Assembly: GCA_944326855.1 (NCBI GenBank)
Contig: CALVFO010000051.1
Span: 1-64,000, forward strand
Reading direction: 5' to 3'
From: an uncultured Alistipes sp.
Lineage (GTDB): Bacteria; Bacteroidota; Bacteroidia; Bacteroidales; Rikenellaceae
DNA length: 64,000 bases
Shown: positions 5,729 through 39,630 of the stretch, piece by piece
Layout: each line of letters opens with the position of its first letter
Numbering within the stretch: the stretch's first letter is position 1
Translations under genes and position numbers: made by a program
The notes under the pieces: model-generated
The model's database searches: none
Told to the model about the DNA's origin: nothing
The model's input: the letters and a program-made list of their open reading frames with translations, nothing else

Positions 5729-7363
5729 ATGAAAACTATCAAAATAGCTTTGCTCGTTTTGGCATCCGCCGGGATATTGACCGCACAGGCCCAAACCCCG
5801 ACCGCCAATGACATGTTGATGCTCTCCCAACAAAATTATTCGTTCGCAACCGCACGCAGTGCCGCCATGGGTGGAGCCTTCACCTCCCTGGGGGCCGACC
5901 TCGCATCCATGTCTATCAACCCCGCCGGATTGGGTATGTACCGAAGCTCCGAATTCGGATTCTCCCCGATGATCTCCTCCTCGAACATGAAAACACAGTT
6001 CGGAGGAGCCAAGGGCTCCGCTTCACAAACCCAATTCGCCGTAGGAAACCTGGCCACAGCCCTCAACCTGTATCAAAGCAGCGGAACCCTGACCAGTTTC
6101 ACGCTGGGTATCGGATACAGCCGACTGGCCGATTTCAACACTTCATCCTTCGCCTATCAAAACGGGCTCTATAACTCGTATGCCGAAATCTTCGCCGAAC
6201 AATTATACGGCGTTAATGTCAGCGAATTCGGATATGACAACAACAATCCGAACGGCCCTTACCAAATTTTCAATAAACTCTCCCTGTTCCAATGGGGCGG
6301 CGCACTGGCCTATCAGGCCGGAGTCCTCGACCCCCTGGGCGAAAACGCCTACTCCCCTTGGGGCCCAAATGTCGAAAATCCAAATCGAACCGGTCCGCTC
6401 TCCGTCAATGCAACCATGAATCCCGCCCAGTGGATCCGGACCAAAGGAAGTATCGGAGAATATACCTTCTCCGGAGGATTCAACTTCAACAATAAATTAT
6501 ACATCGGGTTGACCATCGGACTGCAAGACATCTACTACCGCGGAGAAACCGACTTCCTGGAAACCTATAACAACAACGACCGCCGTCTCAACGGAATGAA
6601 TTATATCCAGGTACAACGATTCAATGGAACCGGCGTTAATTTCAAATTCGGGATGATCGCCCGTCCCACCGAAAACCTGCGCATCGGGGTCGCCGTTCAC
6701 ACCCCCACCTTCATCCACATGGAAGAACAGTATCAGGCTTTCATGAGCGCCGATTACAAAGGGGACGGATGGGGCGATCTGATCGACTCCAACCTGGCCG
6801 CCAACACATACGACATGAACGGTCCTACCCATCTGTTAGGGGGAATTTCATACACCATGCCCGGAATCGGACTCCTCTCTTTCGACTATGAACGTACCTG
6901 GTATAATGGCATGAGATTGAAAAATACCGGATATGTCTCCGTGGAAAACGACCTGAAATACGATGTCACCAACTTCTTCCAGGCGTCGAACAGCTATCGC
7001 GTCGGACTGGAACTGACTCCTACCAACAAATTCTTTGTCCGGGCCGGATATGCTTACTATGGAAATTGTATCAAACAGCAGGATTATCAGTTCTTTGCCA
7101 ACAACAACGTCCGCAGCGATCTGATCTATGTCCTGCCAAAACATACTGACATCGATTCTTATTACAACATCTCGGCCGGGTTGGGATATCGCTTCGGGAG
7201 TTTTTACGCCGATGTGGCCTACATATACTCCCAGTACAATCTCGTCGCCAATCCAATCTACTACTTTATGGATAAACCCGCCGATTTCGTGATCGATTCG
7301 GGAAACGTCAATTACGATCAAACCCGACATACGGTGATCCTGTCGCTGGGGGTAAAATTCTAA
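5729..7363 (+). CDS. FadL/TodX-like outer membrane transport protein
   Basis: A 544-residue protein with a cleavable signal peptide ending AQAQ (about residues 1-22). The mature N terminus is typical of the Bacteroidetes OmpP1/FadL/TodX family: an ARSAAMGGAF segment followed by SINPAGLGMYR. Many alternating aromatic beta strands follow, and the protein ends in LSLGVKF, fitting a beta-barrel C terminus. FadL barrels carry hydrophobic compounds such as fatty acids across the outer membrane; the substrate here is unknown. Likely in an operon with the preceding lipoprotein; a strong terminator follows. Confidence 0.85.
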   Translation: MKTIKIALLVLASAGILTAQAQTPTANDMLMLSQQNYSFATARSAAMGGAFTSLGADLASMSINPAGLGMYRSSEFGFSPMISSSNMKTQFGGAKGSASQTQFAVGNLATALNLYQSSGTLTSFTLGIGYSRLADFNTSSFAYQNGLYNSYAEIFAEQLYGVNVSEFGYDNNNPNGPYQIFNKLSLFQWGGALAYQAGVLDPLGENAYSPWGPNVENPNRTGPLSVNATMNPAQWIRTKGSIGEYTFSGGFNFNNKLYIGLTIGLQDIYYRGETDFLETYNNNDRRLNGMNYIQVQRFNGTGVNFKFGMIARPTENLRIGVAVHTPTFIHMEEQYQAFMSADYKGDGWGDLIDSNLAANTYDMNGPTHLLGGISYTMPGIGLLSFDYERTWYNGMRLKNTGYVSVENDLKYDVTNFFQASNSYRVGLELTPTNKFFVRAGYAYYGNCIKQQDYQFFANNNVRSDLIYVLPKHTDIDSYYNISAGLGYRFGSFYADVAYIYSQYNLVANPIYYFMDKPADFVIDSGNVNYDQTRHTVILSLGVKF

Positions 7364-7404
7364 AAAAACAAAACCGATCCAGACAATTTTCTATACCTTA
7401 TTAT

Positions 7405-7442
7405 AAAAGAGACTTCCCTTTCAACAGGGAAGTCTCTTTTTA
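7405..7442. terminator. Terminator between the FadL-like gene and the response regulator gene
   Basis: Stem AGAGACTTCCCT pairs with AGGGAAGTCTCT around a six-base loop, followed by T residues on the plus strand and preceded by A residues, so it can serve both converging genes. Confidence 0.9.
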
Positions 7443-7513
7443 GATTGTACGTACCGCAAAGCGACCGTCAGAGGAAGAATCGTATCTGTCAGCGGTTATC
7501 CCCGAAGGCGCCC

Positions 7514-8173
7514 TCAAATTTCCACCAAATTGTTCTTGATCGCGTAAACCACCAAATTGGCCGTATTCTTACAGCCCGTCTTGGCCAAAATATTGGAACG
7601 ATGCTTATCCACCGTACGTTTCGAGATAAACAACGCATCGGCAATCTCGCTGTTGGATTCGCCCCGGCAAATATGCAGCAAAATTTCTGATTCGCGTTGG
7701 GACAACTCTTCGCTATCCTCATCCGTTACGGTCGTTGGCGTCGATTTCAAATTACTAACCAGCGTGAACAACAGTTCCTGCGAAAAATAACTCCCGCCTT
7801 CAACCACCGTCTCGATGGCCGTAACCACCTCCTTGATCTCGGAATTTTTCAAAATAAAACCCTTGACCCCCAGAGAAACCATCTTAAAATAATAATCCTC
7901 ATCCCCGTACATGGACAGCGTGATGATCTTCAGATCGGGGTATCGCTTCAAAACCTCTTCCGCCGTCTGAATCCCGTTCATGCGGGGCATTTCGATGTCC
8001 AGCAAAATCACGTCGGGATGAAGCGTCGGCAACATCGCCAACAACTCCTCTCCATCCGAAGCCTCCCCAATCACCGAAAAACCTTCGATCCCATCCAACA
8101 GAATCCGCAAACCATTCCGAAAAAGCGTATGGTCATCCACCACCATGATCTTACAGTCCCGATTCTTTTCCAT
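7514..8173 (-). CDS. NarL/FixJ-family response regulator
   Basis: A 219-residue two-component transcription factor. The N-terminal receiver domain (about 8-125) has the acidic pair D13-D14, phosphoacceptor D59 in LLDIEMP, and Lys in the FILK motif. The C-terminal LuxR-type helix-turn-helix (about 155-215) has ELSQRESEILLHICRG and ISKRTVDKHRSNI. It lies 9 bp downstream of the sensor kinase gene and is surely its partner. Target genes are unknown; neighbouring GH127 or porin genes are possible but unproven. Confidence 0.93.
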   Translation of the reverse strand: MEKNRDCKIMVVDDHTLFRNGLRILLDGIEGFSVIGEASDGEELLAMLPTLHPDVILLDIEMPRMNGIQTAEEVLKRYPDLKIITLSMYGDEDYYFKMVSLGVKGFILKNSEIKEVVTAIETVVEGGSYFSQELLFTLVSNLKSTPTTVTDEDSEELSQRESEILLHICRGESNSEIADALFISKRTVDKHRSNILAKTGCKNTANLVVYAIKNNLVEI

Positions 8174-8182
8174 ATCCTCTAT

Positions 8183-9118
8183 TTATACCGGTACATCCAC
8201 CCTGGCCTCCATCCCCTGACCCGGACGACTCGTAATCGACAACCCGCCCTTCAGCGAACTGATGCGGGACGAAATGTTCGAAAATCCCATCCCCTGATCC
8301 GAAACCGCCTTGATGTCGAATCCACAACCATTATCCCGATAATGAATGCGAAGAAGACCCTCGGTGTAACTTAAATCAATGTCGATCCGCGATGCCCCGG
8401 AATGTTTGAGACTGTTGTTGATCAACTCACAAAGCACCCGATAGAGAATCACCTCCACATCCGTATCGAAACGTTCGCTTTTGAGATTGGTCTGAAATAC
8501 AATCCGAACATTACTGCGAGGTAACTTGTTAATAAAATTGGAAACCGCACGAGCCAATCCGAAATCGTTCAAAACATGGGGACTCAAATTGACCGAAATC
8601 TCCCGCAAACTCCGAATAGCCTCATCGATCACATAACGGGCATTGTGAATAATCTCCTGATTCTTGGGATCCATCTCGGCCGTAGACAAGGCCGAAACCG
8701 ACATTTTCGCCGACGATAGCAACGGACCCAACCCATCATGCAAATCTTTCGAAAAGCGTTGCCGCTCTTTCTCTTCCGTTCGCAACACCGTATTGAGAAT
8801 CCGACGTTCGGAAATGCGTCGTTGACGTTCGGCACTGTAAATATACTTGAAGATCCGCTTGACCAGCAACATCCCTACCGCAAAACACAACGACGTCACA
8901 ACCCCCATCCATACGAAAAATTCCGCCGGCAGACGCCACTCCCAAAACGAAGTCTGTTGAATGTATTCACCAAAACGCATGAATGCCATACAGCTCAACG
9001 CGATCGTAAACAAAATCCACGAAAGATTGTATTTAGTCTGACGCGTCAAACCGATCGCCACCGAAGCCGCACTCAGTTGCAAGACAATCGATATAATCAA
9101 AAGAATCTGAAGAACCAT
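8183..9118 (-). CDS. NarX/DegS-type sensor histidine kinase
   Basis: A 311-residue membrane kinase. There are four hydrophobic segments in the first 90 residues, then a short linker. The HisKA_3 dimerisation motif FSKDLHDGLGPLLSSAK carries the phospho-acceptor His. An HATPase domain follows with an N box (ELINNSLKHSG), a G1 box (DNGCGFD) and a G2-like GMGFSNISSR. There is no periplasmic sensor domain, so it probably senses a membrane or cytoplasmic signal. It is the first gene of a two-gene operon with the response regulator. Confidence 0.92.
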   Translation of the reverse strand: MVLQILLIISIVLQLSAASVAIGLTRQTKYNLSWILFTIALSCMAFMRFGEYIQQTSFWEWRLPAEFFVWMGVVTSLCFAVGMLLVKRIFKYIYSAERQRRISERRILNTVLRTEEKERQRFSKDLHDGLGPLLSSAKMSVSALSTAEMDPKNQEIIHNARYVIDEAIRSLREISVNLSPHVLNDFGLARAVSNFINKLPRSNVRIVFQTNLKSERFDTDVEVILYRVLCELINNSLKHSGASRIDIDLSYTEGLLRIHYRDNGCGFDIKAVSDQGMGFSNISSRISSLKGGLSITSRPGQGMEARVDVPV

Positions 9119-22885: not shown

Positions 22886-22912
22886 ACGCTTTTTTATCTT
22901 TTTTCTGAATTT

Positions 22913-22957
22913 TCGAGGCTACCTCTTGACAAAGGGGTAGCCTCGATCGTATATTTG
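22913..22957 (+). promoter_or_regulatory. Promoter with overlapping 11-bp palindrome at the island's start
   Basis: TCGAGGCTACC (22913-22923) and GGTAGCCTCGA (22936-22946) form a perfect 11-bp inverted repeat with a 12-base centre. The centre holds TTG (22926-22928), and 21 bases downstream is TATATTTG (22950-22957), so the palindrome covers the -33 and spacer of a Bacteroidetes-type promoter. Without a T-run after it, an operator is more likely than a terminator for rnhB. The predicted leader to the first island gene is about 185 nt. Confidence 0.6.
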
Positions 22958-23054
22958 TCCCGGAAACGAACTCCCGTTTCTCCTTTTCGGATCCCTTTCC
23001 CGGAATCCCGATCCTTCTCCAATCAATTCCATCGTCCGCTTCTCTTCCCCGAAC

Positions 23055-23486
23055 TTATCAACAATTCGGAGAAACGATGTCCCCTCCCTTTATCAACACA
23101 ACACGCGGATCGGAAATCCCTCGACTAACACCTCAAATTCCTGTCAATTATGATAGAAAATACGTCTTCATCTTCCCCCAAACGCCGAGGAAGACCTCGG
23201 AAATCCCCCCTGACCGAAACGGTTCCTCAGCCTGGAACCCAACCTCAAAGCATTGAAAATCTAACTAAAACATGCATCGAAACCCTGCAAATCGCTTTAC
23301 AACAAACCAAAGCCCTCGCACGAGAACGCCTTCGCCAAAAACGATCCGATACCCGAATACGTAACGTCGGACGGGAAATCCAAGAACTGCTCAAAGTCAT
23401 GACCCGATATTGTCAAAATTAAATTATCAACAGCTATCCACACGACCGATGCCTTTATCAACACATGAAATCCATCATTATCAACA
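23055..23486 (+). repeat. Cluster of five TTATCAACA boxes (DnaA-box-like)
   Basis: Exact TTATCAACA occurs at 23055-23063, 23090-23098, 23424-23432, 23455-23463 and 23478-23486, all in the same orientation. CTATCCACA lies at 23434-23442. The classical DnaA box is TTATNCACA, so the repeat differs at one position. The boxes bracket the first island gene and run into the second. They could be a replication origin or protein-binding sites controlling the operon. Confidence 0.65.
23150..23422 (+). CDS. Small basic protein with AT-hook-like motif
   Basis: 90 residues, first gene of the capsid-tail island. The N terminus carries KRRGRPRKSP (about 11-20), an AT-hook-type GRP core flanked by basic residues, suggesting minor-groove DNA binding. 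Residues about 40-88 are predicted helical and rich in Arg, Lys and Gln. It could be a regulator of the island, a DNA-packaging accessory or a small-terminase-like protein; I recognise no family. Flanked on both sides by TTATCAACA boxes. Confidence 0.6.
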   Translation: MIENTSSSSPKRRGRPRKSPLTETVPQPGTQPQSIENLTKTCIETLQIALQQTKALARERLRQKRSDTRIRNVGREIQELLKVMTRYCQN

Positions 23487-24298
23487 ACCGGAACTTCTCG
23501 TATGCCGACAAACTGGATGAGCTATCCCTGGGCGAATGGCAAACCCTAATGCTCCTGAAACACAACCCCGACCTCCTATCTCCATCCGCCCCGGAAACAA
23601 ACTTCGAAATCCCAAAACTGAGAAACTCCCTCAACCTCAAATCCAATATTCTTCGAAAAACCGACCCGAACGACCGAAACCTCTTGCTAAAACACTGGAG
23701 CCATCTCATCGCCCAACAAAGTATCGAAAGACTCAATCACCCGCCATCCCCCCAACAGCCCCAACTTAACCCTGAAAATACTTCCCTCTTCCAGAAACAA
23801 ACCCTCCGAAATGCCCGTAACCGCTCCTTCCCCAATCGCCCGTTGGAAAAACTCTCCGCTCAAGCCTTCTGTGACGCTACGGACCTCTTCCTGGAAAACC
23901 CCGTAACACACGCCCATCTCATTAGCTGCATCCTGAGCCAACCCCAAAATTCGACATACAACGAAACCACCATCCTTCGACAGGCGCAGAAACTAAAACG
24001 ACACGCCCTCAAATACACCCTCGAACGATTCGATGAACTATGGAATGCCCATCGTGTGCTGAGAACCTACTTCCCGGCATGCTATCGAAAACCGCTTCAT
24101 GAATCCCTGCCCGCCCAAACAGACAACTCAACCCCCTCCCGATGGAACGATATCCTGCTGTGGGTGGCCAACTACCTCCCTTCCGAAATCCCCCATATCG
24201 CACAAACCCCCTGCTATGAATTCATGCGCATGGCCGACAGTAAAATCCGCATGCATAAAAACACCTTCTCCGTCCAAAACCCGATGAATCATGTTTAG
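23465..24298 (+). CDS. Tail-assembly-chaperone-like island protein
   Basis: 277 residues. The opening (ADKLDELSLGEWQTLMLLK) and the C-terminal part (WNDILLWVANYL ... YEFMRMADSKIRMH) resemble tail assembly chaperones of Bacteroidetes tailed phages, which coat the tape measure during assembly. The middle (about 60-110) is a variable Pro/Gln/Asn-rich linker. In phages this gene normally sits directly before the tape measure gene; here the next gene is only 141 codons and overlaps it by 8 bp. The assignment is by pattern only. Confidence 0.5.
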   Translation: MKSIIINNRNFSYADKLDELSLGEWQTLMLLKHNPDLLSPSAPETNFEIPKLRNSLNLKSNILRKTDPNDRNLLLKHWSHLIAQQSIERLNHPPSPQQPQLNPENTSLFQKQTLRNARNRSFPNRPLEKLSAQAFCDATDLFLENPVTHAHLISCILSQPQNSTYNETTILRQAQKLKRHALKYTLERFDELWNAHRVLRTYFPACYRKPLHESLPAQTDNSTPSRWNDILLWVANYLPSEIPHIAQTPCYEFMRMADSKIRMHKNTFSVQNPMNHV

Positions 24299-24716
24299 AA
24301 CCCGATTACGTTCCTTCATCCAACAAGAGGCCGAAAAGTCCGGCTACCATTTCCGAAACGGGTTTCTGTATCGTATCACCCGAAATGACCTGACATTCCC
24401 CGCCCTGTGGATGGAACCCCCCTCCCTGACGGATGCCATAGGACGACACGAAGGGAGGATCACCTATCATGTAACGCTGCACCTGATCACCTCCGGAAAA
24501 AATTATGACGAAGCCGAAAAAGAAGCACAGTGGGAAAACCTGGAAAAACAAGCCTTGACTTGGACCCAAAACCTCCTTGCCCATGACGATATCTTCTCGG
24601 TCGACAAAATCCGTTGCTCTCCCGCCGAATTCAGCCTGACAAACCGCGGAGAAATCTCCCTGAAAATCGAGTTCGATACCCATTTCATTTTCCCCCTCAA
24701 AACCTCCGAACCCTAA
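24291..24716 (+). CDS. Tail-terminator or neck-like small island protein
   Basis: 141 residues, alpha/beta pattern. Sequence features (hydrophobic strand ITYHVTLHLI, central helix KEAQWENLEKQALTWTQNLL, then two C-terminal strands ending LKIEFDTHF) fit the fold of tail terminator or tail completion proteins that cap the tail tube at the head end. No confident family match by eye. It overlaps the preceding gene and is followed after 30 bp by the next. Confidence 0.45.
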   Translation: MFRTRLRSFIQQEAEKSGYHFRNGFLYRITRNDLTFPALWMEPPSLTDAIGRHEGRITYHVTLHLITSGKNYDEAEKEAQWENLEKQALTWTQNLLAHDDIFSVDKIRCSPAEFSLTNRGEISLKIEFDTHFIFPLKTSEP

Positions 24717-24746
24717 CCCGACTCAGGCCTTAATCCTCAAAACTCT

Positions 24747-25751
24747 ATGGAAATCATCGCTACCCCCGCTCAACGTTCCTCCGCCTATCGGGACGCCATC
24801 TTCTCACTCTCCGCCCTCGAATCCGAACAAATCGACCTGGATATTCGAGATGAAACGCAAAACCTGTTGCTGGGGAAAAAAAGACTCTCCGGACAAACAT
24901 CCTACTCCGTCAACGTCAGTAATTACGCCCAACGTCTCCTGAATGTCACCCCCCTGAGAAACAATACGTCGTTCTTCTCCCATCCCGAACACAGAATGGC
25001 CTCCATCCAAATTCAGGCCGGCAACACCCAAGGAAGCGTCATCCTGACCAGCGGACTGGAAAAAATCATGTTCTTCGAAAAACTGTCCAAAGCCCCCGAC
25101 CCGCAACCAATCTCCCCCGAACACGGAGACGAACTCGCCCTCTATACCGACGACTCGGCCCTTTTTGCAGACATCATCCTGAACATCAACGGCCAACAAC
25201 AAAAAATCCGAATCGCCGAAAAAGAGAAGAAAATGGGACTCTGTGCACTGTACCTCAGCATGCCCCACGTCGCAAACAAAATCAGCGACGCCGGATTAGG
25301 TCTCCTCGAAAACTATCACGACCTGGAACTGCAAATCACAACCGAATACAACGAATTGGTCCTCAGCCGAAAATACACCCTCGAGGCAGCCTCCCCTAAA
25401 ACACTGAGACTCTGCTGGTGGAACTATTTCGGACAAATCGACTACTACAGCTTCAAATTGAACCGAAAATCCCTCCTCATCGACAAACAACGAATCTATT
25501 CCCAACAAGGATACAAAACAACCGGCTGCCAAACCGAAACCCTATACGAACTGATCTCCAATTGCCTGAACGAAGAAAATATGAACTGGCTGCAAGAACT
25601 GACCGCAGCCCCGAAAGTATGGATCGACGACGGAATCAACTTTATCCCCGTGGAAATCCTGACCCAACAAATCATCACCGGAGGAAACGAACTCGTAAAA
25701 ATGGAAATCAGTATGACCCCCTGTCAGAAAACCATATACCAGCACCTCTAA
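24747..25751 (+). CDS. Probable distal tail or tail-tip protein
   Basis: 334 residues, beta-rich, with no signal peptide or membrane segment. It precedes, by 4 bp, the 801-residue tail-hub-like gene, the usual pairing of a distal tail protein with a hub in tailed phages of Bacteroidetes. Conspicuous segments are LLLGKKRLSGQTSYSVNVS near the N terminus and LCWWNYFGQIDYYSF at about 215-230. Function is inferred from position and general composition. Confidence 0.5.
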   Translation: MEIIATPAQRSSAYRDAIFSLSALESEQIDLDIRDETQNLLLGKKRLSGQTSYSVNVSNYAQRLLNVTPLRNNTSFFSHPEHRMASIQIQAGNTQGSVILTSGLEKIMFFEKLSKAPDPQPISPEHGDELALYTDDSALFADIILNINGQQQKIRIAEKEKKMGLCALYLSMPHVANKISDAGLGLLENYHDLELQITTEYNELVLSRKYTLEAASPKTLRLCWWNYFGQIDYYSFKLNRKSLLIDKQRIYSQQGYKTTGCQTETLYELISNCLNEENMNWLQELTAAPKVWIDDGINFIPVEILTQQIITGGNELVKMEISMTPCQKTIYQHL

Positions 25752-25755
25752 ACCC

Positions 25756-28161
25756 ATGAAATGCTTTATCGATAACCGAGAAGCGGAAACCGATCCCGCC
25801 CAAAGCCTCGCCATCACCCTCTCCATCGCCTCGGTCTCGCAAATCGAAACCGGTCGAACCGGATACAGCAAAAACCTGAAACTCCCCATTACACTGCATA
25901 ACCGGGAAATCCTGAACGACGCCGGCGAAATCCTCTCTCCTCAACGGTTCAATCAAACTCCCCATACCGCCCGTATCGAAAAAGACGGATGTATCGTGAT
26001 GGAAGGAATCCCCATGATGACCAAACGGGAAGAATTCCCGGACAGATCGGGTTGGTACCACCTGTGTATCATCGGAGCCGGGAAAGAATGGATACAAACC
26101 GCTTCCGAACGCATGTTCAATGAACTGGATATCGATTTCGAATCCGTACTCAATGCCAATACCGTGCTCAACAGCTGGTCCGGAGAACAAATCGTGCGAT
26201 TTTTCCCCGTACAGCGAGACCGATTCTCCCTCCCAACCCAAACGCTCCAAAGCGGTGTCCGAATGATGACCTTCGAGGATTATCATCCTTTCCTGCATGT
26301 CCATTCCTTGATCCGGCAAATAGCCGCCCAAAGCGGATATACCATTCAATCTTCATTCCTGGAAAGCCCCCTCTTCGATGCCCTGTACATCAGCGGGAAA
26401 TATCCGGAACGAGACAGCACCCTGCTGAAAGAACGAATGGGGTTTCTGGCCGGACGATTCTCTTCGATATCGGCCACGGCAGATCACCTGGGTCGGATCT
26501 ATGCCGATCCGCTCAGCTCGATCGCCTCCCTGGGAAACCTGGTCGAAACAGCCGACCCTCATGAACAACAAAACGGAGTAAGCCTCCCGGATCTCTATAA
26601 CCACAACGAATGCTTCCGAAAAGAGGGCGATCGATTCGGGTTCTTCCCCGTAGAAAGCGTCGTGGCCGGTTTCGAATACGATATCCAGTATCAAAGCGAT
26701 TATATCATCAGCAACCGCCAGGAACTCTGCTGTTTCAATACCCTGTATCTGGACGACGGCCATGAACGGGAATACAAAGTCATGAATCGGAATACAGATC
26801 GCCGCCATGAATTCCGGGCCAACTGGAACTATACGCTCATCGTATTCGACCACCTCGACGGAAACTCCTATCAGTTCACCTATGACAAAATTACCAACCC
26901 GAATGCGGATCTCCAGAACCTGCAACCCTCAGATTATGTCACCCTGGTCCTGAAATCCTTTTCCGAACGATGCGTCAATATCTCAACCCCCACCGGTGAA
27001 ACCATCCTGAACCCTCAACTCCAGATACGATTCCCCGACAATACCTATCAACCCTATACCCAAGACTGGGCTCTATATGACGGATATGTCACTGAAACCG
27101 GACAAATCGACATCCGTATCACCGCACGAAGTACCGCCCGGGAAATCAAACCGTCTCAACCCCAATATTTCGATCAAATCTACTTCGGAGGAGCCCGAGA
27201 AGGCATGAAACTCACGCTCTCTGCTAAAACGACCCTGAAACCGATCTTCGTATCCCACCCGGGAGAGGGCAATAGCGTCAATTTCGCTCAGGTCGCAGCT
27301 CACGAAATCCGGCAAATCGAACTGATCAATGCCCTCAAACAAATGTTCAACCTCTACTTCTATACGGATACCCGAACCAAAACCATATACATCGAGCCGA
27401 GGGAAGAGTTTTATGGATCCCAACTTATCGACTGGAGCGATAAAATCGACCTGGAAAAACCCATTCAGGTCGAAGAACTGGGCGAAGAAACCGGAAACCT
27501 GTTTACCCTCCAATACCAAACCGGAGATGGAGCCGTTACCCGATGGAATCGAGCCAACAAACAAGTTCTGGGGGCCTGGAGTGCCGAAATTCAAAACCGA
27601 TTCACCCAACAAAAAGAAAAAACGTACGAAAACCCGCTCTTTACCGCCTCGATCAATCAGCAGAACGTCTATCCCGACGCGCCGTCCGCTTCCATCGTCC
27701 AAGCCGGAGATCGCGACGCAGACGGCGAAAATCCCGGGGTGGAAAATCTGAACTTCATGCCCAAAATCGTATGTTATGCCGGTGTGAAAACGCTCCCCGA
27801 AGGGGAATATTGGGGCTGGCCGGCCTACGGCAACCAATATCCGATGATCGCATTCCATGATCCGGACGGAAATACCCCCTCTCTCTGCTTCGAGGACCGA
27901 AACAACCAACAAGGACTGCACCGGTATTATGACAAAACAATCGAAACATACAACCAAGGCCTGAAAATCACCCTGTATCTCCACCTGACCCCCGACGAAA
28001 TCGAACCGTTCATCATCCCGAATGACATGCAACACGATTTTCGCGCCCGGTTCAAACTCCGAATCCACGGAGAAGAGATCATCTGCCGACTGGAAGAAAT
28101 TACCGACTACAACCCCGATCTCAACCAATCAACACGTTGCACCTTTCTGAAAACCGCCTAA
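25756..28161 (+). CDS. Large tail-hub-like protein
   Basis: 801 residues, the largest gene of the island. The N terminus contains ITLSIASVSQIETGRTGYSK followed by NLKLPITLHNREIL. That pattern (conflict with a resting state, 'SK', then 'LP.T..N') I associate with a tail/baseplate-hub family in Bacteroidetes prophages. The remainder is beta-rich with many Tyr/Asp/Gly turns. No catalytic motif, collagen repeat or receptor-binding repeat is evident, so host-binding fibres are absent or elsewhere. Confidence 0.55.
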   Translation: MKCFIDNREAETDPAQSLAITLSIASVSQIETGRTGYSKNLKLPITLHNREILNDAGEILSPQRFNQTPHTARIEKDGCIVMEGIPMMTKREEFPDRSGWYHLCIIGAGKEWIQTASERMFNELDIDFESVLNANTVLNSWSGEQIVRFFPVQRDRFSLPTQTLQSGVRMMTFEDYHPFLHVHSLIRQIAAQSGYTIQSSFLESPLFDALYISGKYPERDSTLLKERMGFLAGRFSSISATADHLGRIYADPLSSIASLGNLVETADPHEQQNGVSLPDLYNHNECFRKEGDRFGFFPVESVVAGFEYDIQYQSDYIISNRQELCCFNTLYLDDGHEREYKVMNRNTDRRHEFRANWNYTLIVFDHLDGNSYQFTYDKITNPNADLQNLQPSDYVTLVLKSFSERCVNISTPTGETILNPQLQIRFPDNTYQPYTQDWALYDGYVTETGQIDIRITARSTAREIKPSQPQYFDQIYFGGAREGMKLTLSAKTTLKPIFVSHPGEGNSVNFAQVAAHEIRQIELINALKQMFNLYFYTDTRTKTIYIEPREEFYGSQLIDWSDKIDLEKPIQVEELGEETGNLFTLQYQTGDGAVTRWNRANKQVLGAWSAEIQNRFTQQKEKTYENPLFTASINQQNVYPDAPSASIVQAGDRDADGENPGVENLNFMPKIVCYAGVKTLPEGEYWGWPAYGNQYPMIAFHDPDGNTPSLCFEDRNNQQGLHRYYDKTIETYNQGLKITLYLHLTPDEIEPFIIPNDMQHDFRARFKLRIHGEEIICRLEEITDYNPDLNQSTRCTFLKTA

Positions 28162-28173
28162 CCGCTCAAAGCT

Positions 28174-28647
28174 ATGTCTATCTTATACCGCATTCGATTC
28201 GACTCCCTCCTTCCCCTCGATCTAGATACACCCACTTCACGCTCTTCGCCTTCCTCTCCCGACATAAGCGCCAACCCTCCGGACAACAGCGCGACCGCCA
28301 TCTCCCCGCTCAGCGTCCTATCCGCTTCAGAAGACAAGCCCCAAAATACCTTCTCCATCACCTCCTCTCCCCTGTCCTTCGAGTCTCACCGCTCTATCGC
28401 AGACCTACAGCCGCTCTCTTTGTCCGGATCCCTCATCGACAAACAAACCTCGTCCCCATCTGCCTCGTCAAACCCGCCGACCACCCCTTCCTCAGCTTCT
28501 CCCAACGATTCGGCTCCCCTCGTCCGCGCTGAAGTACGTCAAATGATCGACGAAGCCCTGAACGGTCTGAAAGTCTATGTCCTGGAATCCGATATCACCC
28601 AAGCCCAACAAGCTGTCAAAAGCATCGTCGAACTAGCATCCTTCTAA
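28174..28647 (+). CDS. Ser/Pro-rich island protein, possible reduced tape-measure-region protein
   Basis: 157 residues. Residues about 15-115 are low-complexity Ser, Pro, Ala and Thr, predicted disordered. The last 45 residues form a helix and end VYVLESDITQAQQAVKSIVE-LASF. This resembles C-terminal ends I associate with structural proteins near the tape measure and tail tip in Bacteroidetes phages. The gene begins 12 bp after the hub-like gene and ends one base before the next. An overlapping open frame (28137-28532) lacks this conserved end and is rejected. Confidence 0.5.
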   Translation: MSILYRIRFDSLLPLDLDTPTSRSSPSSPDISANPPDNSATAISPLSVLSASEDKPQNTFSITSSPLSFESHRSIADLQPLSLSGSLIDKQTSSPSASSNPPTTPSSASPNDSAPLVRAEVRQMIDEALNGLKVYVLESDITQAQQAVKSIVELASF

Positions 28648-28648
28648 C

Positions 28649-28921
28649 ATGACTTCTTACGAGAAAGAACTCATCTCTCAATTGGAACAGCACTATCCCA
28701 GGCTGTCGACAACCCGATTGCTGGAAAAACTAATGGATATGGGTGTCATCGATTTCTCCCGTTGCAAAATCTTGGCCGTACGAAGTCGGGTCGAACAACT
28801 CGTCAAACAAGGATATAAAAAAATCGATGCCATGTGGGAAGCCGCCTCCCATTTCGCCTGTTCCTACGAATATGTGCGTAAATGCATGTACTACTACCAA
28901 GACGTAAACCTTTGTGATTAA
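28649..28921 (+). CDS. Small helix-turn-helix-like island protein
   Basis: 90 all-helical residues. The C-terminal half (KIDAMWEAASHFACSYEYVR then KCMYYY) has the spacing of a helix-turn-helix in which ACSY is the turn. It sits between tail-type and head-type genes, where a regulator or small-terminase-like DNA-binding protein might be expected. No family assigned. It is spaced 1 bp from the preceding gene, so it is translated as part of the operon. Confidence 0.5.
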   Translation: MTSYEKELISQLEQHYPRLSTTRLLEKLMDMGVIDFSRCKILAVRSRVEQLVKQGYKKIDAMWEAASHFACSYEYVRKCMYYYQDVNLCD

Positions 28922-28948
28922 CCTTTAAGCATCCTTATCGTCCACGCT

Positions 28949-29959
28949 ATGTTAACCGGAACCCTCGTATTGGTGAAACGTTCGGAACAAATCACCGAAC
29001 TGAACATCGACGGCATGATCGGCCTTTCGGAGGAAAACCCCTCCGAAACTCCGATAGACAGCCGGGAAAGTTATGCCGCCTTCCAAAAACAACTCGAAGC
29101 CATTCGACAAATTACGACCCCAGAAATCGTGGTCAATATCCGCTCCGCCGGAGGAAACGTCAATGACGCCCTGTTGATCCATGACATCCTGTGCGAATCG
29201 GGAAAACTAATCACCACCCGTTGCTACGGCTATGTCGCCTCGGCCGCCACCCTAATCGCCCAAGCCGCCTCAAAAGGACGTCGAGAAATGTCGGCTAACA
29301 GCCTGTATCTGATCCACCGTTCCACCTGCAGCGGAAGCGGAAATGTGGATACACTCTCCCAAACCGTCGACCTGCTCAACCAAACCGACCGACGAATCGC
29401 TGAACTGTATGCCGCCCGGGCAGGAAAAACCACCGACCATTTTCTACAGTTAATGGCCATGAACCACGGAAACGGGAAATGGTTGTGCGCCCGAGAAGCC
29501 AAAACGGCCGGATTGATCGACCGAATTATTCCGGCTCAGAAAATCAACGACGAAATCCCTTATTCCCTGCCAAACAGCCAACTCCCGGCTCTGCCCGAAC
29601 CCGCCTGTAAACTATCAGAAGTATGGATGGAAGCCGCCTTACGGCTTTTACAAAAAACCGTTGAAAAACTATCTGAAAAATGCAGAAACACCCTCAACCC
29701 TTCCCAACCTCCCTCAGAGAACAGCGCTCCGGCACGCTCTGCGGAGCCTCAAACCATCCCCAACAACACAACTAACGAACAGCCAGATCCGGTAGCCCCC
29801 TCTCCAAACACTCCCAAACGACCGCCTATCGACCCGCCCCTCCGCATGCAGGCCCGGGCCACCTCAACCGAAAAACAAGAAGACCCCGGATACGAAGAAC
29901 CGCTGGCATCCCCCAATGCCCGATCCTACCAACAAGACGCCGAACAATTCACCCTATAA
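28949..29959 (+). CDS. ClpP-type capsid maturation protease with proline-rich tail
   Basis: 336 residues. Residues about 15-200 are a serine peptidase of the S14 ClpP fold: NIRSAGGNV (oxyanion loop, about 63-71), catalytic S98 in GYVASAATLIAQAA, H123 in LYLIHRST, and the family-typical REAKTAGLIDRII ending. Residues 200-336 are a Pro/Ser/Asn-rich tail, as in phage proteases where it acts as a scaffold and is cleaved. The next gene is the capsid protein, 22 bp on, which fixes the role as head maturation rather than housekeeping ClpP. Probable catalytic residues are intact. Confidence 0.85.
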   Translation: MLTGTLVLVKRSEQITELNIDGMIGLSEENPSETPIDSRESYAAFQKQLEAIRQITTPEIVVNIRSAGGNVNDALLIHDILCESGKLITTRCYGYVASAATLIAQAASKGRREMSANSLYLIHRSTCSGSGNVDTLSQTVDLLNQTDRRIAELYAARAGKTTDHFLQLMAMNHGNGKWLCAREAKTAGLIDRIIPAQKINDEIPYSLPNSQLPALPEPACKLSEVWMEAALRLLQKTVEKLSEKCRNTLNPSQPPSENSAPARSAEPQTIPNNTTNEQPDPVAPSPNTPKRPPIDPPLRMQARATSTEKQEDPGYEEPLASPNARSYQQDAEQFTL

Positions 29960-29981
29960 CCCCTTATTCAAATTTATCATT

Positions 29982-30986
29982 ATGGCAAAAATCGAAAGTA
30001 CCAAAACCTACTCCGGACAGACCCTGGAAAACATCTTCTTCCGACCCATGCTCAGCGGCCCAAATGCCATCGACCTGGGCATCAAAGTCATGTACAACAT
30101 GCCGATGCCTACAACCCTGCAATTCTGGAAACGAGCCGGAGACATCCTGCAAAAACTGACGGCCGGAGGCTGGAATGGGTCCACCAGCACGTCCAAATTC
30201 CAAAAAACCATCGCGCTCTCAAAAGTCAAAGCCGAAATCAGCTACGGAGCCGCCGACTATTTCAGTATGGTATTCGAACTGATCACCAACCGACCGGATG
30301 TCAATATGGATGACCTCTCGGGAACCGAACTCGAAGCGGCTGAAACCGCCCTCTTCCGGGAAGCCATCGCTGAAAGTATTCGGGTAACAATGTGGCTGGG
30401 CGATACGGACCGCAGCGGAAGCTACAATACATTCGACGGTTTCATCAAACGCATGACCGAAGATGTTGGAAGTACCACAAACGATATCCGTAAAATCGAT
30501 ATCCCCGCCAGCTTCTCCGACGGAAGCGACCCCGAAGCCGGTGAAAACCTGCTCAAAAGCCTGTGGGATAACGCCACTACAGCCCTGAAAGCCTGCAAAT
30601 CCCAAGGAAACCTGGTCTACCTGGTCACCTCGGATATTTACGCAAAATACGAAGAAGAACTCGATAGCGCCAGCCTCGAAGCAGCCTACCTCGCCAAACA
30701 AAACGGCCGAGAAAGACTCTCGTATCGCGGTATTCCCGTCATTGATGTAGAACTCTCCTCCTACCTGAGCGCACTCTCCGACATGCCCAAATCCTTCGCC
30801 GTACTGACCGACCGCCGAAATCTGGCTCTGGCCGTCAATACCGCCGACTTCCCCGGATCGGAAATCCGAATGTGGTATAACCCCGACCTGATGGAAAACC
30901 GGCAACGGGCCGTCTTTATGGCCGGATGCGATTACCTGCTCCCCGAACTGATCTCGTTGGCTATACCGGCTACCTCTGAACCCTAA
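29982..30986 (+). CDS. HK97-fold major capsid protein
   Basis: 334 residues. The segment RGIPVIDVELSSYL, then FAVLTDRRNLALAVNT, MWYNPDLMENRQRAVFMAG and DYLLPELISLAI matches the C-terminal part of HK97-like capsid proteins of Bacteroidetes phages. The N terminus is short, consistent with a separate scaffold (the protease tail). The ATG at 29982 is preferred over an upstream in-frame start at 29916, which would overlap the protease gene. A perfect 14-bp hairpin follows, typical of a highly expressed capsid transcript end. Confidence 0.82.
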   Translation: MAKIESTKTYSGQTLENIFFRPMLSGPNAIDLGIKVMYNMPMPTTLQFWKRAGDILQKLTAGGWNGSTSTSKFQKTIALSKVKAEISYGAADYFSMVFELITNRPDVNMDDLSGTELEAAETALFREAIAESIRVTMWLGDTDRSGSYNTFDGFIKRMTEDVGSTTNDIRKIDIPASFSDGSDPEAGENLLKSLWDNATTALKACKSQGNLVYLVTSDIYAKYEEELDSASLEAAYLAKQNGRERLSYRGIPVIDVELSSYLSALSDMPKSFAVLTDRRNLALAVNTADFPGSEIRMWYNPDLMENRQRAVFMAGCDYLLPELISLAIPATSEP

Positions 30987-31001
30987 AATCATACCTCTCC
31001 C

Positions 31002-31034
31002 AATCCGGGTTTTGTCGAATACAAAACCCGGATT
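31002..31034 (+). terminator. Hairpin after the capsid gene (attenuator or mRNA stabiliser)
   Basis: AATCCGGGTTTTGT (31002-31015) pairs perfectly with ACAAAACCCGGATT (31021-31034) around a 5-base loop. No T-run follows, so it may partly stop transcription or protect the capsid mRNA 3' end, raising capsid yield relative to downstream genes. Confidence 0.7.
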
Positions 31035-31077
31035 CTCCTATCAATTACGTTTAACGCTTCCTTAAAACAAGTACAAC

Positions 31078-31611
31078 ATGGCATTATCCGGATACGCCCC
31101 CTTATACAACACCCGCAGAAACGGCGGAATTCAAAAACTCGCCCTGATCCAAACCAGCGATCTGGTGGAAACCCAGTATGACGCCGAATCCCGGGGATAC
31201 ACGAATATCACCCTCCAGTTAAGCCAAAAATTTTCGGTGTACAACTTCCGAGAAGATGAGGCGGAATACACCGAAAAAACAGAAATCCAACAAGGTGTCG
31301 TCGTCGTAACTCATGAGCTGAAATTTCTGCTCGACAAAATGTGCAACACAACAGCCATCGCCGTTTCCGAACTGATCAACAGCTCCTTCAGAGGACTCAT
31401 CGCCCTGATCAGAACGTTTACGAACGAAACTTACCTGATCGGATACTCCCAAGAATTCGAAAAACAACGCCCGCTGCATGTCGTACAAACCAATGCTACA
31501 ACCGGAAAGCGATTTACCGATCCCAGTTCGGAAATCATCGTCCTCCAAAGTACCGACACCGCTAAAGCCTGCAACGTATTCATGGACATCGACGAACTGC
31601 TGAACAACTAA
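31078..31611 (+). CDS. Tail-tube-like protein
   Basis: 177 residues. The pattern NGGIQKLALI, a central strand region, then TNETYLIGYSQEFEKQRPLH and TGKRFTDPSSEIIVLQS resembles tail tube proteins of Bacteroidetes siphophages (a '.. G..YLLG...G..+....TG....D..' motif before a final strand). It lies between the capsid and portal genes, an unusual place for a tube gene. An alternative is a head decoration or neck protein. Confidence 0.55.
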   Translation: MALSGYAPLYNTRRNGGIQKLALIQTSDLVETQYDAESRGYTNITLQLSQKFSVYNFREDEAEYTEKTEIQQGVVVVTHELKFLLDKMCNTTAIAVSELINSSFRGLIALIRTFTNETYLIGYSQEFEKQRPLHVVQTNATTGKRFTDPSSEIIVLQSTDTAKACNVFMDIDELLNN

Positions 31612-31622
31612 TCTTCTCCCCC

Positions 31623-32861
31623 ATGCATAAACCTCCCCTTCCTAACAAAATCCCCAACAAACTCTATCTGCCAACGAACCGGACAGATCCCTTTTTCCCC
31701 ACTCATTCCTCCCTCCCAAGCAGTAAACAACCCTTCTGGAAATGGGGAAACGACAACCTGTTCCCATACGCTCTGGCCCTGATGTCCCGCCATTCGACAA
31801 CCCATCGGCGAATTATCAACGACAAAGCCGACTATATCTCCGGAAAAGGATTCTCTTTCGATCCGGAAAACCAAATGCTGGAAGCATTTACACGCCGGGC
31901 CAACGGTTCCGGAGAAAGCCTCCGACAAGTCTTCAACAAACTGGCTTTCGACAAAGCCCTCTTCGGAAACGCCTTCCTGGAAATCGTCTCCGATCCCCAG
32001 CACTCGTTTCTCTCCCTTTTCCATCAAGACGCCTCCAAATGCCGGGTCGCCAAAGAAAATAACGCCATCCTGCTTCACCACAACTGGAAAGAATTCAAGC
32101 ACGATACGTGCCGGTCTCTTCCGCTTTACCCTCGGTTCGAATTGAGCGATGACGGAACCCTGCGCTCCATCATCCACTACAAAGATTATGAACCCATGTT
32201 CGAACACTATGGCGTACCGTCTTACATCGCCGGAATGAACGTGTCGGCCATCGCCTACAAAACCGATCAATGGAATATCAGCCGACTGGACAACTCGTTC
32301 CAATTATCCGGCATTATGGTGCTGGACGGAGAAGTCGACAACGAACTGGACGCCCACCAGATTATCCGAACCGCCGAAAAACGATTCGCCGGAAAACCCG
32401 GGCAAGTCATGTTCATGATCAAAAATACGGAAGAAGCCGACAACTCGAAATTCGTCCCCATCGCGTCGGATAACGAAGGGGACTGGAAACTCCTACATGA
32501 ACAGGCAACCTCGGATATCGTAGTCGCTCACTCCTGGTTCCGATCGCTGAGTGGATTGGATTATGCCAGCGGTTTCAACTCGGAACGCATCCTCCACGAA
32601 TACGAAATCGCCCTCAACACCCTCATTCTGGGAGAACAGCAAGAACTCTTGGAACCCATTCGCGATGCGATTGCCAACCTCTTGGGCTGTGATGCCTCCT
32701 CCCTGCAAGTCATCAACCGACCGCCTACCCGATCCAAACCGCTTTACATGAAAGTCTGGGAAGCCCGTAAAAACGACGGATTGGATTACGACCCGACCGA
32801 TCCTCAACAAAACCTGTTCCTGGCTCAGATCACCAAATACGCCCTGAAAAATATCGATTGA
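31623..32861 (+). CDS. Phage portal protein
   Basis: 412 residues. The N-terminal motif FWKWGNDNLFPYALALM followed by HRRIINDKADYISGKGF is characteristic of portal proteins from Bacteroidetes tailed phages. The portal is the dodecameric ring at one capsid vertex through which DNA passes and to which the tail attaches. Its presence implies that a portal vertex, not a plain shell, is built. The next gene starts one base after this stop. Length is near the usual 400-480. Confidence 0.85.
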   Translation: MHKPPLPNKIPNKLYLPTNRTDPFFPTHSSLPSSKQPFWKWGNDNLFPYALALMSRHSTTHRRIINDKADYISGKGFSFDPENQMLEAFTRRANGSGESLRQVFNKLAFDKALFGNAFLEIVSDPQHSFLSLFHQDASKCRVAKENNAILLHHNWKEFKHDTCRSLPLYPRFELSDDGTLRSIIHYKDYEPMFEHYGVPSYIAGMNVSAIAYKTDQWNISRLDNSFQLSGIMVLDGEVDNELDAHQIIRTAEKRFAGKPGQVMFMIKNTEEADNSKFVPIASDNEGDWKLLHEQATSDIVVAHSWFRSLSGLDYASGFNSERILHEYEIALNTLILGEQQELLEPIRDAIANLLGCDASSLQVINRPPTRSKPLYMKVWEARKNDGLDYDPTDPQQNLFLAQITKYALKNID

Positions 32862-32862
32862 C

Positions 32863-33351
32863 ATGAGCGCCCTTTTACTCGCCACTCCCGCAGAAATCTG
32901 GGAAATCGCCTTTCCGCAAAGCGGAAATACCCCTGACGAAAATATCAACGAAACCTTGATCGAAACCGCTCAGATACGCTATCTCAAACCGGTTTTGGGC
33001 CCTCTGTACGACAGTTTGGATGAAGCCCGGTATCAGGATTTCATCGGACGGTTTCTCAAAAAGCCTTTGGCTTATTATGTACGAAGTCTCTCTCTGGGTC
33101 TGATGAGCGCTTCCGTCGGAAGTTTAGGTATTCTGGAAGGAAAAACCGATTATGCTTCACCGGTTTCCATTCGCCAACTTCATGCCTTACGCAAAGAAGC
33201 CCGGCACCAGGCCGACATTTTGTTGGATCTGGCCGTGGAATACATCGAAAACAATCCCTCGCAATTCCCCGAATACGTCCCACAAAAAAACATCCGGCAC
33301 TACACCCGTATTCGAGGCGGTATCGTCATGAATACCCCTCCTAAACCCTGA
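32863..33351 (+). CDS. Head-tail adaptor-like protein (DUF6712-like)
   Basis: 162 residues, mostly helical, with ETAQIRYLKPVLGPLYDSL near the N terminus and a C-terminal FPEYVPQKNIRHYTRIRGGIVMN. This arrangement is typical of small adaptor/DUF6712-like proteins encoded after the portal in Bacteroidetes phages, comparable to HK97 gp6. It is the last gene of the island. No plus-strand poly-T terminator follows; the hairpin at 33383-33413 has its T-run on the minus strand. Confidence 0.7.
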   Translation: MSALLLATPAEIWEIAFPQSGNTPDENINETLIETAQIRYLKPVLGPLYDSLDEARYQDFIGRFLKKPLAYYVRSLSLGLMSASVGSLGILEGKTDYASPVSIRQLHALRKEARHQADILLDLAVEYIENNPSQFPEYVPQKNIRHYTRIRGGIVMNTPPKP

Positions 33352-38649: not shown

Positions 38650-39630
38650 TCATTCCTCCTCATGCGATTTTTTGGCCCTGGGATGGGCCTGATTGTAAAC
38701 TCGTTTCAGTTGTTCTATGCTGTTGTGGGTATAAACCTGAGTCGCCCCCAGGCTACTATGCCCCAACAACTCCTGAATGGTGCGGATATCCACCCCGCCG
38801 TCCATCAGATGCGTGGCGAAAGTATGTCTCAGCACGTGGGGGCTACTCTTGCCCTGTACCCCGGCTTCCCGCAAAATACGATGAACGATCCGGTAGATTT
38901 CGCTACGGCTGATCTGCTTCCCCTCGCTTGTTAAAAATAAAAAATTTATGTCACATGTACAAATGTTTTGCTCCTGAATTATGTGCAAATAAACGGTAAT
39001 TTTATCGGCTACAGGAGCTATAACAGGGATTACCCGTTCTTTGTCTCCCTTACCCCGAACCTTCAGCCTCGTAAAGTGATCCGAAAAATCGCTCACCCGG
39101 ATATTTCTCAATTCATCCAACCGAATCCCCGTGGCGTAAAAAAGCAGAATGATCAAGGCATCGCGTTCGATCATAAAATCTTCGGTGGGCTGCATCAACG
39201 ACGCGGTCAGTCGCTTCATACGGCTCTGTTCCACAAACGAAGGCAGGCGCTTGGGCATCCGCAACGAAGAGACTTTTTGAAACGGATCGCCGGAAATCTC
39301 CCCATGAGAGCGCAAATAGCGATAAAAAGCTTTAACGGCAGAGAGTTTGCGGTTGATGGTGGTCGCTTTACGATGTTCTTTCCCCGAAAGGCTGATGATC
39401 CAGGCCCTCAGGTCGTTGGTTTCGACCAACAACGGATCGAAACGTTGAGCCGGATCACTCTCCGCCTCAGCGCCGCGATCTTCCCCCTCAGAAAACTCAT
39501 CCGGGATGTTCTGCAGGCAGAAGCGCATGAATTGCCGGATATCATCACCATAGACACGAACCGTCAGGGGCGAATAACGTTTCTCCGCCGCCAGATAGTG
39601 CAAAAAAGCCTCCAAATGATTCATATCCAT
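38650..39630 (-). CDS. xerC: Tyrosine recombinase XerC/XerD type
   Basis: 326 residues. An N-terminal SAM-like core-binding domain precedes the catalytic domain with Arg in ATGIRLDEL, the HxxR box SSPHVLRHTFATHLMDGG, the second His in LLGHSSLGATQVYTH, and nucleophile Tyr in VYTH. These enzymes resolve chromosome dimers at dif. The neighbours hpf and rpsU make it the conserved housekeeping Bacteroidales enzyme, not the phage-island integrase. An ATG two codons in is an alternative start. Confidence 0.92.
   Translation of the reverse strand: MDMNHLEAFLHYLAAEKRYSPLTVRVYGDDIRQFMRFCLQNIPDEFSEGEDRGAEAESDPAQRFDPLLVETNDLRAWIISLSGKEHRKATTINRKLSAVKAFYRYLRSHGEISGDPFQKVSSLRMPKRLPSFVEQSRMKRLTASLMQPTEDFMIERDALIILLFYATGIRLDELRNIRVSDFSDHFTRLKVRGKGDKERVIPVIAPVADKITVYLHIIQEQNICTCDINFLFLTSEGKQISRSEIYRIVHRILREAGVQGKSSPHVLRHTFATHLMDGGVDIRTIQELLGHSSLGATQVYTHNSIEQLKRVYNQAHPRAKKSHEEE

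Follow-up and report, generated by a model that had tools for sequence, protein, structure and literature searches.

A two-locus, phage-derived head–tail system of the Rikenellaceae, probably a gene transfer agent

Overview

The operon described here is one locus of a two-locus, phage-derived system of the Rikenellaceae, which is largely vertically inherited. We read it as the head–tail locus of an old domesticated Rikenellaceae phage, most likely a gene transfer agent (GTA), and give this reading a probability of about 70%. The window, that is, the whole 64-kb stretch of DNA analysed, contains twelve open reading frames at 23150-33351, all on the + strand, between rnhB and a convergent gene; the identity of rnhB and of the other neighbours was assigned by eye. 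The terminase TerL and a repressor are encoded on a different contig of this draft assembly.

Gene content of the operon

The features of the operon are as follows:
22904..22961, + strand: operon promoter candidate, TTGACAA-17 nt-TATATTTG; 18 loci have the same element ahead of the operon
23150..23422, + strand: g1, 90 aa, role not assigned; HMM matches in 17 of 47 loci (operon and TerL loci pooled)
23465..24298, + strand: g2, 277 aa, tail-side protein, fast-evolving, dN/dS 0.51
24291..24716, + strand: g3, 141 aa, tail-side protein
24747..25751, + strand: g4, 334 aa, tail-side protein
25756..28161, + strand: g5, 801 aa, predicted tail hub, Mu gp44/VgrG-like
28174..28647, + strand: g6, 157 aa, probable miniature tape measure
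28649..28921, + strand: g7, 90 aa, small, conserved
28949..29959, + strand: g8, 336 aa, ClpP-type prohead protease with a C-terminal part
29982..30986, + strand: g9, 334 aa, major capsid protein, dN/dS 0.075
31078..31611, + strand: g10, 177 aa, predicted tail-tube-like fold
31623..32861, + strand: g11, 412 aa, portal
32863..33351, + strand: g12, 162 aa, head–tail connector candidate; the homologue in genome G020 is a DUF6712 protein

All twelve frames are open, the GC content of the operon is close to that of the surrounding DNA, and no direct repeats of at least 16 nt bracket the block; on these three points the initial annotation, which had described intact genes, host-like composition and a lack of attachment repeats, is borne out. 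No terminase, lysis or replication genes are found within the block, which therefore does not hold the gene set of a complete prophage. In an inspection by eye of the operon and of the surroundings of TerL, integration and replication genes were likewise not noticed; the XerC-like gene found at 38650-39630, adjoining an hpf-like gene, was judged by eye to encode the host enzyme. An Rfam scan of the region gave no match at the gathering score, and Pfam and NCBIfam found little in the tail-side genes.

Concerning the head, g8 matches PF00574 (E 2.6e-24) and the PHROG head maturation protease (E 1.9e-36), g9 is capsid-like with a PHROG head match (E 6e-10), and g11 has a PHROG portal match (E 4e-19) as well as a match to PF04860 that is below the cut-off of that family (E 8e-8). 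The protease, capsid and portal that had been proposed at first sight are thus all recovered, and the block is a structural cluster that stems from a tailed phage, as in GTAs. A tailocin is ruled out by the capsid, portal, protease and TerL. The C-terminal part of g8, which persists where the protease domain is lost, is possibly a scaffold. When viral sequences were scanned with one capsid sequence, zero relatives were returned, and a scan with the capsid alignment returned 13; the capsids of four relatives carry extra residues at the C-terminus.

Tail genes and the tape measure

The predicted folds are tail-tube-like for g10 and baseplate-hub-like for g5, the latter with a predicted insert at residues ~222-502 that resembles a TNF/C1q-like jelly roll; the tube-like and tail-tip-like proteins of the initial annotation fit these predictions. 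Four phage contigs (L305-L308: IMG/VR 3300017991_000226, 3300031673_000354, 3300031578_000122 and 3300017971_000650; G061 is the record of L307) have a capsid 30-34% identical to that of the window and a similar gene order, g2-g4-g5-tape measure-g7-(ClpP)-capsid-g10-portal-g12. Among them the g8 profile matched only L306 and L307, which appear similar to each other, and L305 went unmatched by the g4 profile. TerL is present in all four records, and they differ from the operon in a tape measure of 1003-1010 aa. G061, the one record viewed whole, has TerL upstream of the g2 side, a g2 counterpart of 273 aa, an amidase (PHROG) and replication genes assigned by eye.

The g6 gene is located between g5 and g7, where the phage contigs have their tape measure, and its only recognisable tape-measure part is a C-terminal VYVLESDITxAQ segment. 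This motif is found near the C-terminus in all 80 viral loci examined (from at least 120 stretches), and in 59 of the 80 the frame that bears it is at least 500 aa long. PHROG tape-measure families are matched by five of ten motif proteins scanned (L327 1e-18, L325 4e-11, L331 1e-8, L333 1e-4 and L330 1.4e-4) and not by the other five, some of which match profiles labelled endolysin or virion structural protein. When the g6 profile was aligned directly with the L305, L306 and L308 tape measures, the result was not significant (E 0.23 and 0.72), and these proteins are absent among the matches listed for g6's own profile. Based on the gene position and the C-terminal motif scan, g6 is most likely a tape measure shortened to 157 aa from the roughly 1000 aa seen in the similarly arranged phage contigs; the reduction is well supported. 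The earlier statement that a tape measure is missing is therefore most likely wrong.

The terminase–repressor locus

TerL is an open frame at G000:C31:6213-8246. A terminase is thus lacking from the window, as stated initially, but not from the genome, which contains the packaging terminase expected of a GTA. The motor and nuclease residues of TerL are unchanged in all eight sequences aligned. Beside it are a putative TerS and a small gene from which the gene of a CI/LexA-like S24 repressor diverges; apart from TerL, only these three look phage-derived by eye there. Matches to phrog_2 of ~20 bits were taken as ordinary ATPases and disregarded. With a packaging motor kept across relatives at a second locus, a GTA fits better than could be known from the window, and the suggestion of a non-DNA cargo loses its basis, since it had relied on the absence of both terminase and tape measure.

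A TerL on another contig would also be expected if the block were the structural half of an ordinary prophage, separated by a recent rearrangement. This alternative, which the initial annotation had raised against its own proposal, is extremely improbable: TerL and the portal lie apart in many relatives also, and few phage-like genes surround TerL.

Promoter candidate and operator

The TTGACA box of the promoter candidate sits within the loop of an inverted repeat whose arms differ between genomes; pairing is clear in 14 of 18 loci, weak in two and absent in two. Five of six genomes have a single match to the promoter pattern and G004 has two. Three of the 21 pattern rows were dropped as being away from the operon (L043 twice, L044 once), loci L060 and L051 were used for L037 and L031, which represent the wrong side of the operon, and the promoter alignment A1 contains the window promoter two times. 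The mean best mismatch to the repressor operator at the head promoter is 2.44 over 18 loci vs 3.13 over 60 mononucleotide shuffles. There is no good operator match in the promoter region of the window, where the best has 4 mismatches; therefore we claim neither a recurrence of the operator at the head promoter nor a link between the repressor and the head operon.

Conservation and inheritance

The portal is found in 28 of 36 other Rikenellaceae genomes and TerL in 29 (the match in G030 is a 73-residue piece); 27 of the 36 have both and six have neither (Fisher p 9.5e-5, kinship ignored). Relatives of the capsid are found in 227 genome stretches, and 79 of the 80 among the matches listed carry the title of a Rikenellaceae member. 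The operon is thus not an island of one strain, a possibility that had been set against the initial proposal. Two records from faeces, titled 'Bacteriophage sp.', also contain pieces of it, and one of them continues into comEC; such loci sit in IMG/VR and GenBank labelled as viruses.

The distances of the portal, capsid, TerL and g5 follow those of the host gene cysS (Spearman 0.51-0.65; 0 of 2000 permutations). In midpoint-rooted trees the genus is kept together by the capsid, TerL, g5 and cysS but not by the portal, where its eight members fall in a clade of 24; G004 and G008 are sisters in the cysS tree only, and G010 and G030 are in a clade of three in the portal tree.

Capsid-forming satellites (cf-PICIs) rely on a helper phage for missing parts. 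An incomplete gene set spread over two loci would suit such a satellite, or another mobile element that borrows helper-phage parts, but the trees are broadly vertical, the rnhB junction is common to 11 of the 28 relative loci fetched, and the block ends without repeats, which makes this origin very unlikely.

Selection and erosion

For one genome pair, dN/dS (NG86 values, rough because dS is near or above 1) is below 1 in all 12 operon genes (0.075-0.51; g6 over 67 codons only), 0.145 in TerL and 0.038 in the repressor. The capsid and portal have values of ~0.08, vs 0.026-0.079 for five neighbouring host genes in the same pair. Vertical inheritance, a normally single copy and purifying selection (in this pair), which are traits of GTAs, are thus all found here. 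Relaxed selection, also considered initially, is not seen in the pair tested, and domestication under selection is supported by the family-wide conservation and the broadly host-like trees together with these values.

Signs of erosion are found in some relatives. The portal of G033 is interrupted by an internal stop, the capsid, protease and hub frames of G013 are shortened (in a fragmented assembly), and four genomes of the same genus have lost the ClpP domain. G020, G015 and G034 have head genes without tail genes nearby, and the operons of some relatives leave no room for a tape measure. Holin (PF05105) and/or endolysin-like genes directly follow g12 in some relatives; holin and lysozyme profiles built from these have zero matches in the present genome (93% complete), so that its lysis genes are either lost or unrecognised.

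The erosion and the lack of a detected lysis gene here, which count against the GTA reading, are what a slowly decaying, functionless ancient prophage might show, with head genes that persist by chance. We consider this quite unlikely, given that every frame of the operon is open, that the capsid and portal are nearly as constrained as the five neighbouring host genes, that the promoter element is nearly unique to the operon, and that TerL and the portal are kept or absent together despite their separate places. The reduced or absent tail genes of several lineages and the loss of the ClpP domain also suggest that delivery and maturation may be unneeded in those lineages, as would be the case for a domesticated particle without a gene transfer role (for example one used for killing or altruistic lysis, or as a protein cage). 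This too is unlikely: TerL keeps its motor and nuclease residues in the eight sequences aligned and occurs in roughly as many genomes as the portal does, and a cage or tailocin needs no TerL.

Proposed function

In the GTA reading, particle production would begin upon loss of S24 repression. TerL would pack DNA through the portal into the capsid, which the ClpP-type protease would mature. The packed DNA is presumably that of the host, because the particle genes are split between two loci, around which a self-contained phage genome was not seen. The g10 tube-like protein, the g6 miniature tape measure and the g5 hub would together form a very short tail, which would deliver this DNA once the particle is released.

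A broader proposal, for and against which we see equal odds, is that this is the first GTA family of the Bacteroidota, in a common gut family, and that it is losing its tail stepwise. The series would start from a phage whose tape measure has 1000 residues, pass through miniature tape measures of 55-250 residues and operons in which none would fit, and end in operons that keep terminase, protease, capsid, portal and connector and have no tail genes. Control would be divided between the two loci, with an operon-specific promoter flanked by a covarying hairpin. Alistipes and related bacteria are frequent in the gut; if the proposal is true, they would have a built-in route of DNA exchange, the short list of GTAs would gain one more independent origin, and the loci would form a natural series for the shortening and loss of a phage tail while DNA packaging stays.

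Comparison with known systems

The GTA of Rhodobacter capsulatus (RcGTA) is inherited vertically and its genes are partly dispersed. Here, the terminase–repressor unit is apart from the head–tail operon, the protease is of the ClpP type, the hub has a TNF/C1q-like insert, and some relatives are without room for a tape measure or without nearby tail genes, all of which differ from RcGTA. Profiles of the capsid, portal, g4 and g5 found little among solved PDB structures: one weak match, of the portal to the RcGTA portal (E 0.32), which norovirus and other rows equalled or exceeded in score. The likeness, in our case known from genes, is in the phage-derived head, portal, adaptor and tube protein and in a drastically short tape measure, described for RcGTA as 113 + 83 + 20 residues in the part of the source considered (PMC7296036).

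We found no report of a GTA in Rikenellaceae or Alistipes at the level of titles and abstracts, in literature searched largely without subscription papers. In a study of gut virus-like particles (VLPs), 23 of 25 GTA events were assigned to named families, none of them Rikenellaceae in the sections considered, although the Rikenellaceae were among the three most abundant families in total DNA (PMC12946183); this counts against the GTA reading. The Faecalibacterium GTA (FpGTA) described there has its capsid and portal in a compact operon of 10.5 kb, a second operon elsewhere, and particles of ~40 nm for which the same sections report no identifiable tails (PMC12946183). The present system, as read from its genes, resembles FpGTA in its gut host, compact capsid–portal operon and second locus, and differs in that FpGTA has TerL within the FpGTA I operon and lysis genes in FpGTA II (PMC12946183). 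The host of FpGTA belongs to the Ruminococcaceae (PMC12946183), and we assume that it and the Rikenellaceae system have separate origins.

By its parts, the system to which the operon belongs is a domesticated, DNA-packaging one, and it most likely serves gene transfer. The main points against this reading are that the particle is unobserved; that the lysis genes of the window genome were not found; that some lineages show signs of erosion; and that Rikenellaceae are absent among the gene transfer agent (GTA) events named in the consulted part of PMC12946183. Our literature searches found no report of a GTA of Rikenellaceae.

Terminase locus and repressor

The initial annotation listed the terminase as missing; the gene of its large subunit is found elsewhere in the window's own draft genome:

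Contig 31 (L107), 6213-8246, minus strand: TerL, terminase large subunit

The C-terminal 525 residues of TerL match the PHROG terminase large subunit (E 1e-81). The Walker A motif PPQHGKS is invariant in 8/8 aligned sequences, as are a DD pair and several aspartates of the nuclease part. A terminase domain is found in 19 of the 20 family genomes searched (single copy in 18 of those), and a protein search found the terminase in the twentieth, G006. Among the 36 other family genomes, TerL is present in 29 and accompanied by the portal in 27; two genomes (54-57% complete) contain TerL without portal, one (79% complete) portal without TerL, and six lack both. The portal-TerL distance in finished relatives is 19 kb (G008), ~216 kb (G004) and ~750 kb (G006), and in G020 TerL lies ~4 kb from the portal.

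A putative small subunit, TerS (PHROG E 0.005), lies 5' of TerL, as do a gene of 93 aa and, in divergent orientation, an HTH-S24 repressor (PF00717, E 9e-14). Of the TerL loci compared (18), 16 have a repressor relative and 14 the 93-aa gene. Upstream of the repressor, 15 of 17 regions contain a TTCAA-n-TTGAA palindrome with at most one mismatch (mean mismatches over the 17: 0.71 vs 2.80 in shuffles). By eye, at least 14 of the 17 repressor proteins retain the Ala-Gly, Ser and Lys positions of self-cleaving repressors.

Distribution, inheritance and selection

The portal is found in 28 of the 36 other family genomes, in single copy except in G033, and in one of 24 genomes from other families of the order, as a weak match of 24% identity. 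The second portal of G033 (C39, ~13-22 kb) is distant (25% identity) and accompanied by a weak hub match and a terminase frame interrupted by five stops; this region is probably a broken prophage in its own right. Scanning named genomes with the capsid profile gave 227 stretches that encode a relative; among the 80 listed, titles name Alistipes, Tidjanibacter, Rikenella, Millionella or Rikenellaceae with one exception, titled just 'Bacteroidales bacterium'. The rnhB junction, at which the initial annotation proposed seeking the operon in relatives, is shared in part: 11 of 28 loci compared have rnhB ahead of the operon, the arrangement of the window, and at the others it was not found within the stretch examined. 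Distances of portal, capsid, TerL and g5 (predicted hub) correlate with those of host cysS (Spearman 0.51-0.65; 0/2000 permutations as high); disagreements with the host tree exist, most of all in the rooted portal tree.

The selection proposed earlier agrees with dN/dS values (NG86) from one pair, the genome of the window and that of its nearest relative (dS ~0.7-1.8): capsid 0.075, portal 0.084, TerL 0.145, protease 0.26 and 0.51 for g2, a tail-side gene and the fastest of the operon. Five host neighbour genes gave 0.026-0.079 in the same pair.

Promoter candidate

A promoter candidate, also present in 17 related loci, lies upstream of the first gene, g1:

Window 22904-22961: TTGACAA-17-TATATTTG

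Of six genomes examined for the pattern with a spacer of 14-20, five have a single match and G004 has two, the operon site being included in each case. Complementary arms, differing in sequence between genomes, flank the TTGACA box in most of the 18 loci. Their pairing score is at least 18 in 14/18; L041 and L059 pair weakly, at 13-14, which is close to the swapped-arm mean of 12.1, and the arms of L032 and L042 have no stem. The own-arm pairing sum is 408 vs a swapped mean of 228 (SD 19; 0/20000 permutations; kinship not corrected). At a protein-binding site sequence conservation is expected; because such a site would retain its sequence, a hairpin in DNA or transcript is the favoured explanation of the covarying arms.

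Reduction across relatives

Of 29 operon loci, 13 yielded the small gene g6, in ORFs of 55-250 aa; seven loci have no room for it, since the gap between g5 and g7 is at most 25 nt. At least four (L040, L043, L047, L049) have no room between capsid and portal for g10, the predicted tube-like protein. Concerning g5 itself (window 25756-28161), residues ~222-502 of this predicted tail hub are predicted to form a TNF/C1q-like jelly-roll insert. TerL, protease, capsid, portal and the connector candidate g12 form one block lacking tail genes in G020 and G015, and are spread across ~10 kb in G034; a genome-wide search for the hub yielded two short, weak matches in G034 and none in the other two genomes.

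The ClpP protease domain is lost in G002, G004, G005 and G008, where the 88-114 aa that remain match the C-terminal third of the g8 (protease) profile only:

L033, L034, L035, L036, between g7 and the end of g9 (capsid): ClpP-less remainder

Elsewhere in these genomes the best ClpP matches have 24-28% identity and resemble the host enzyme. The capsid ORF of the four loci has ~86 additional C-terminal residues; that of L038 has them too, yet ClpP is kept there.

Lysis genes and virome records

The initial annotation listed lysis genes as missing. In the window genome, holin and lysozyme profiles both found no match; five relatives (G004, G008, G012, G019, G022) contain a holin and/or lysozyme-like gene 3' of the operon. 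Each profile search covered 37 genomes, among them 23 of the 37 of the family (own included); the lysozyme profile also matches three genomes from other families. In locus L053 and the faecal record MT838805 (L163), two genes stand directly 3' of g12: a holin (PF05105) and one that is endolysin-like (PHROG E 2e-42 and 5e-44; no Pfam match).

MT838805 also contains comEC (PF03772, 1775-3250) directly 3' of the lysis genes and, by eye, a methyltransferase-like gene; it is titled 'Bacteriophage sp.'. This neighbourhood is suggestive because DNA uptake of the Rhodobacter capsulatus GTA (RcGTA) relies on competence homologues, according to part of PMC7296036. MT838736 contains g3-g5, and g7 through part of g11. 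Each of the two carries the label human faecal, Mexico, unverified. Linking them to the DNase-treated VLPs from Mexican children of PMC8361208 is a guess, since the consulted part of that paper does not name the accessions, and bacterial contamination would explain them as well. The two GenBank records and the IMG/VR contigs L296-L304 (capsid 42-69% identical) resemble pieces of this chromosomal operon; these public collections catalogue them as viruses.

Phage relatives and the tape measure

Capsid identity to the window is 30-34% in four viral contigs (L305-L308), whose lengths are 28.8-42.4 kb. Their homologues share the relative order of the operon, the gene set not being full everywhere: g8 was matched by its profile only in the similar-looking L306 and L307, and L305 has no match to the g4 profile. 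In the record of L307, TerL and (by eye) TerS are upstream of the g2 side. Phage order minus TerS-TerL would give the window layout, and phage order minus the tail block between TerL and ClpP that of G020, which suggests such derivations.

Between its g5 and g7 homologues, L307 encodes a 1003-aa tape measure (PHROG E 5e-44), and the 157-aa g6 (28174-28647) occupies this position in the window. At its end g6 reads LKVYVLESDITQAQQAVKSIVELASF, in agreement with a motif for which viral contigs were scanned at the DNA level; among the matches listed, this motif is at most 60 residues from the stop in 80/80 viral loci, and 59/80 of the ORFs bearing it have at least 500 aa. Ten motif-bearing proteins were scanned, of which half match tape-measure families with E of at most 1.4e-4; the other five have no such match. 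The earlier view that the tape measure is missing is most likely wrong, given the position and C-terminal motif of g6; the direct profile comparison of g6 and three phage tape measures was not significant. The RcGTA has a short tape measure, described in part of PMC7296036 as a helix of 113 residues, 83 further residues and a helix of 20; a short tape measure, for which g6 is the candidate, would likewise be present in the window.
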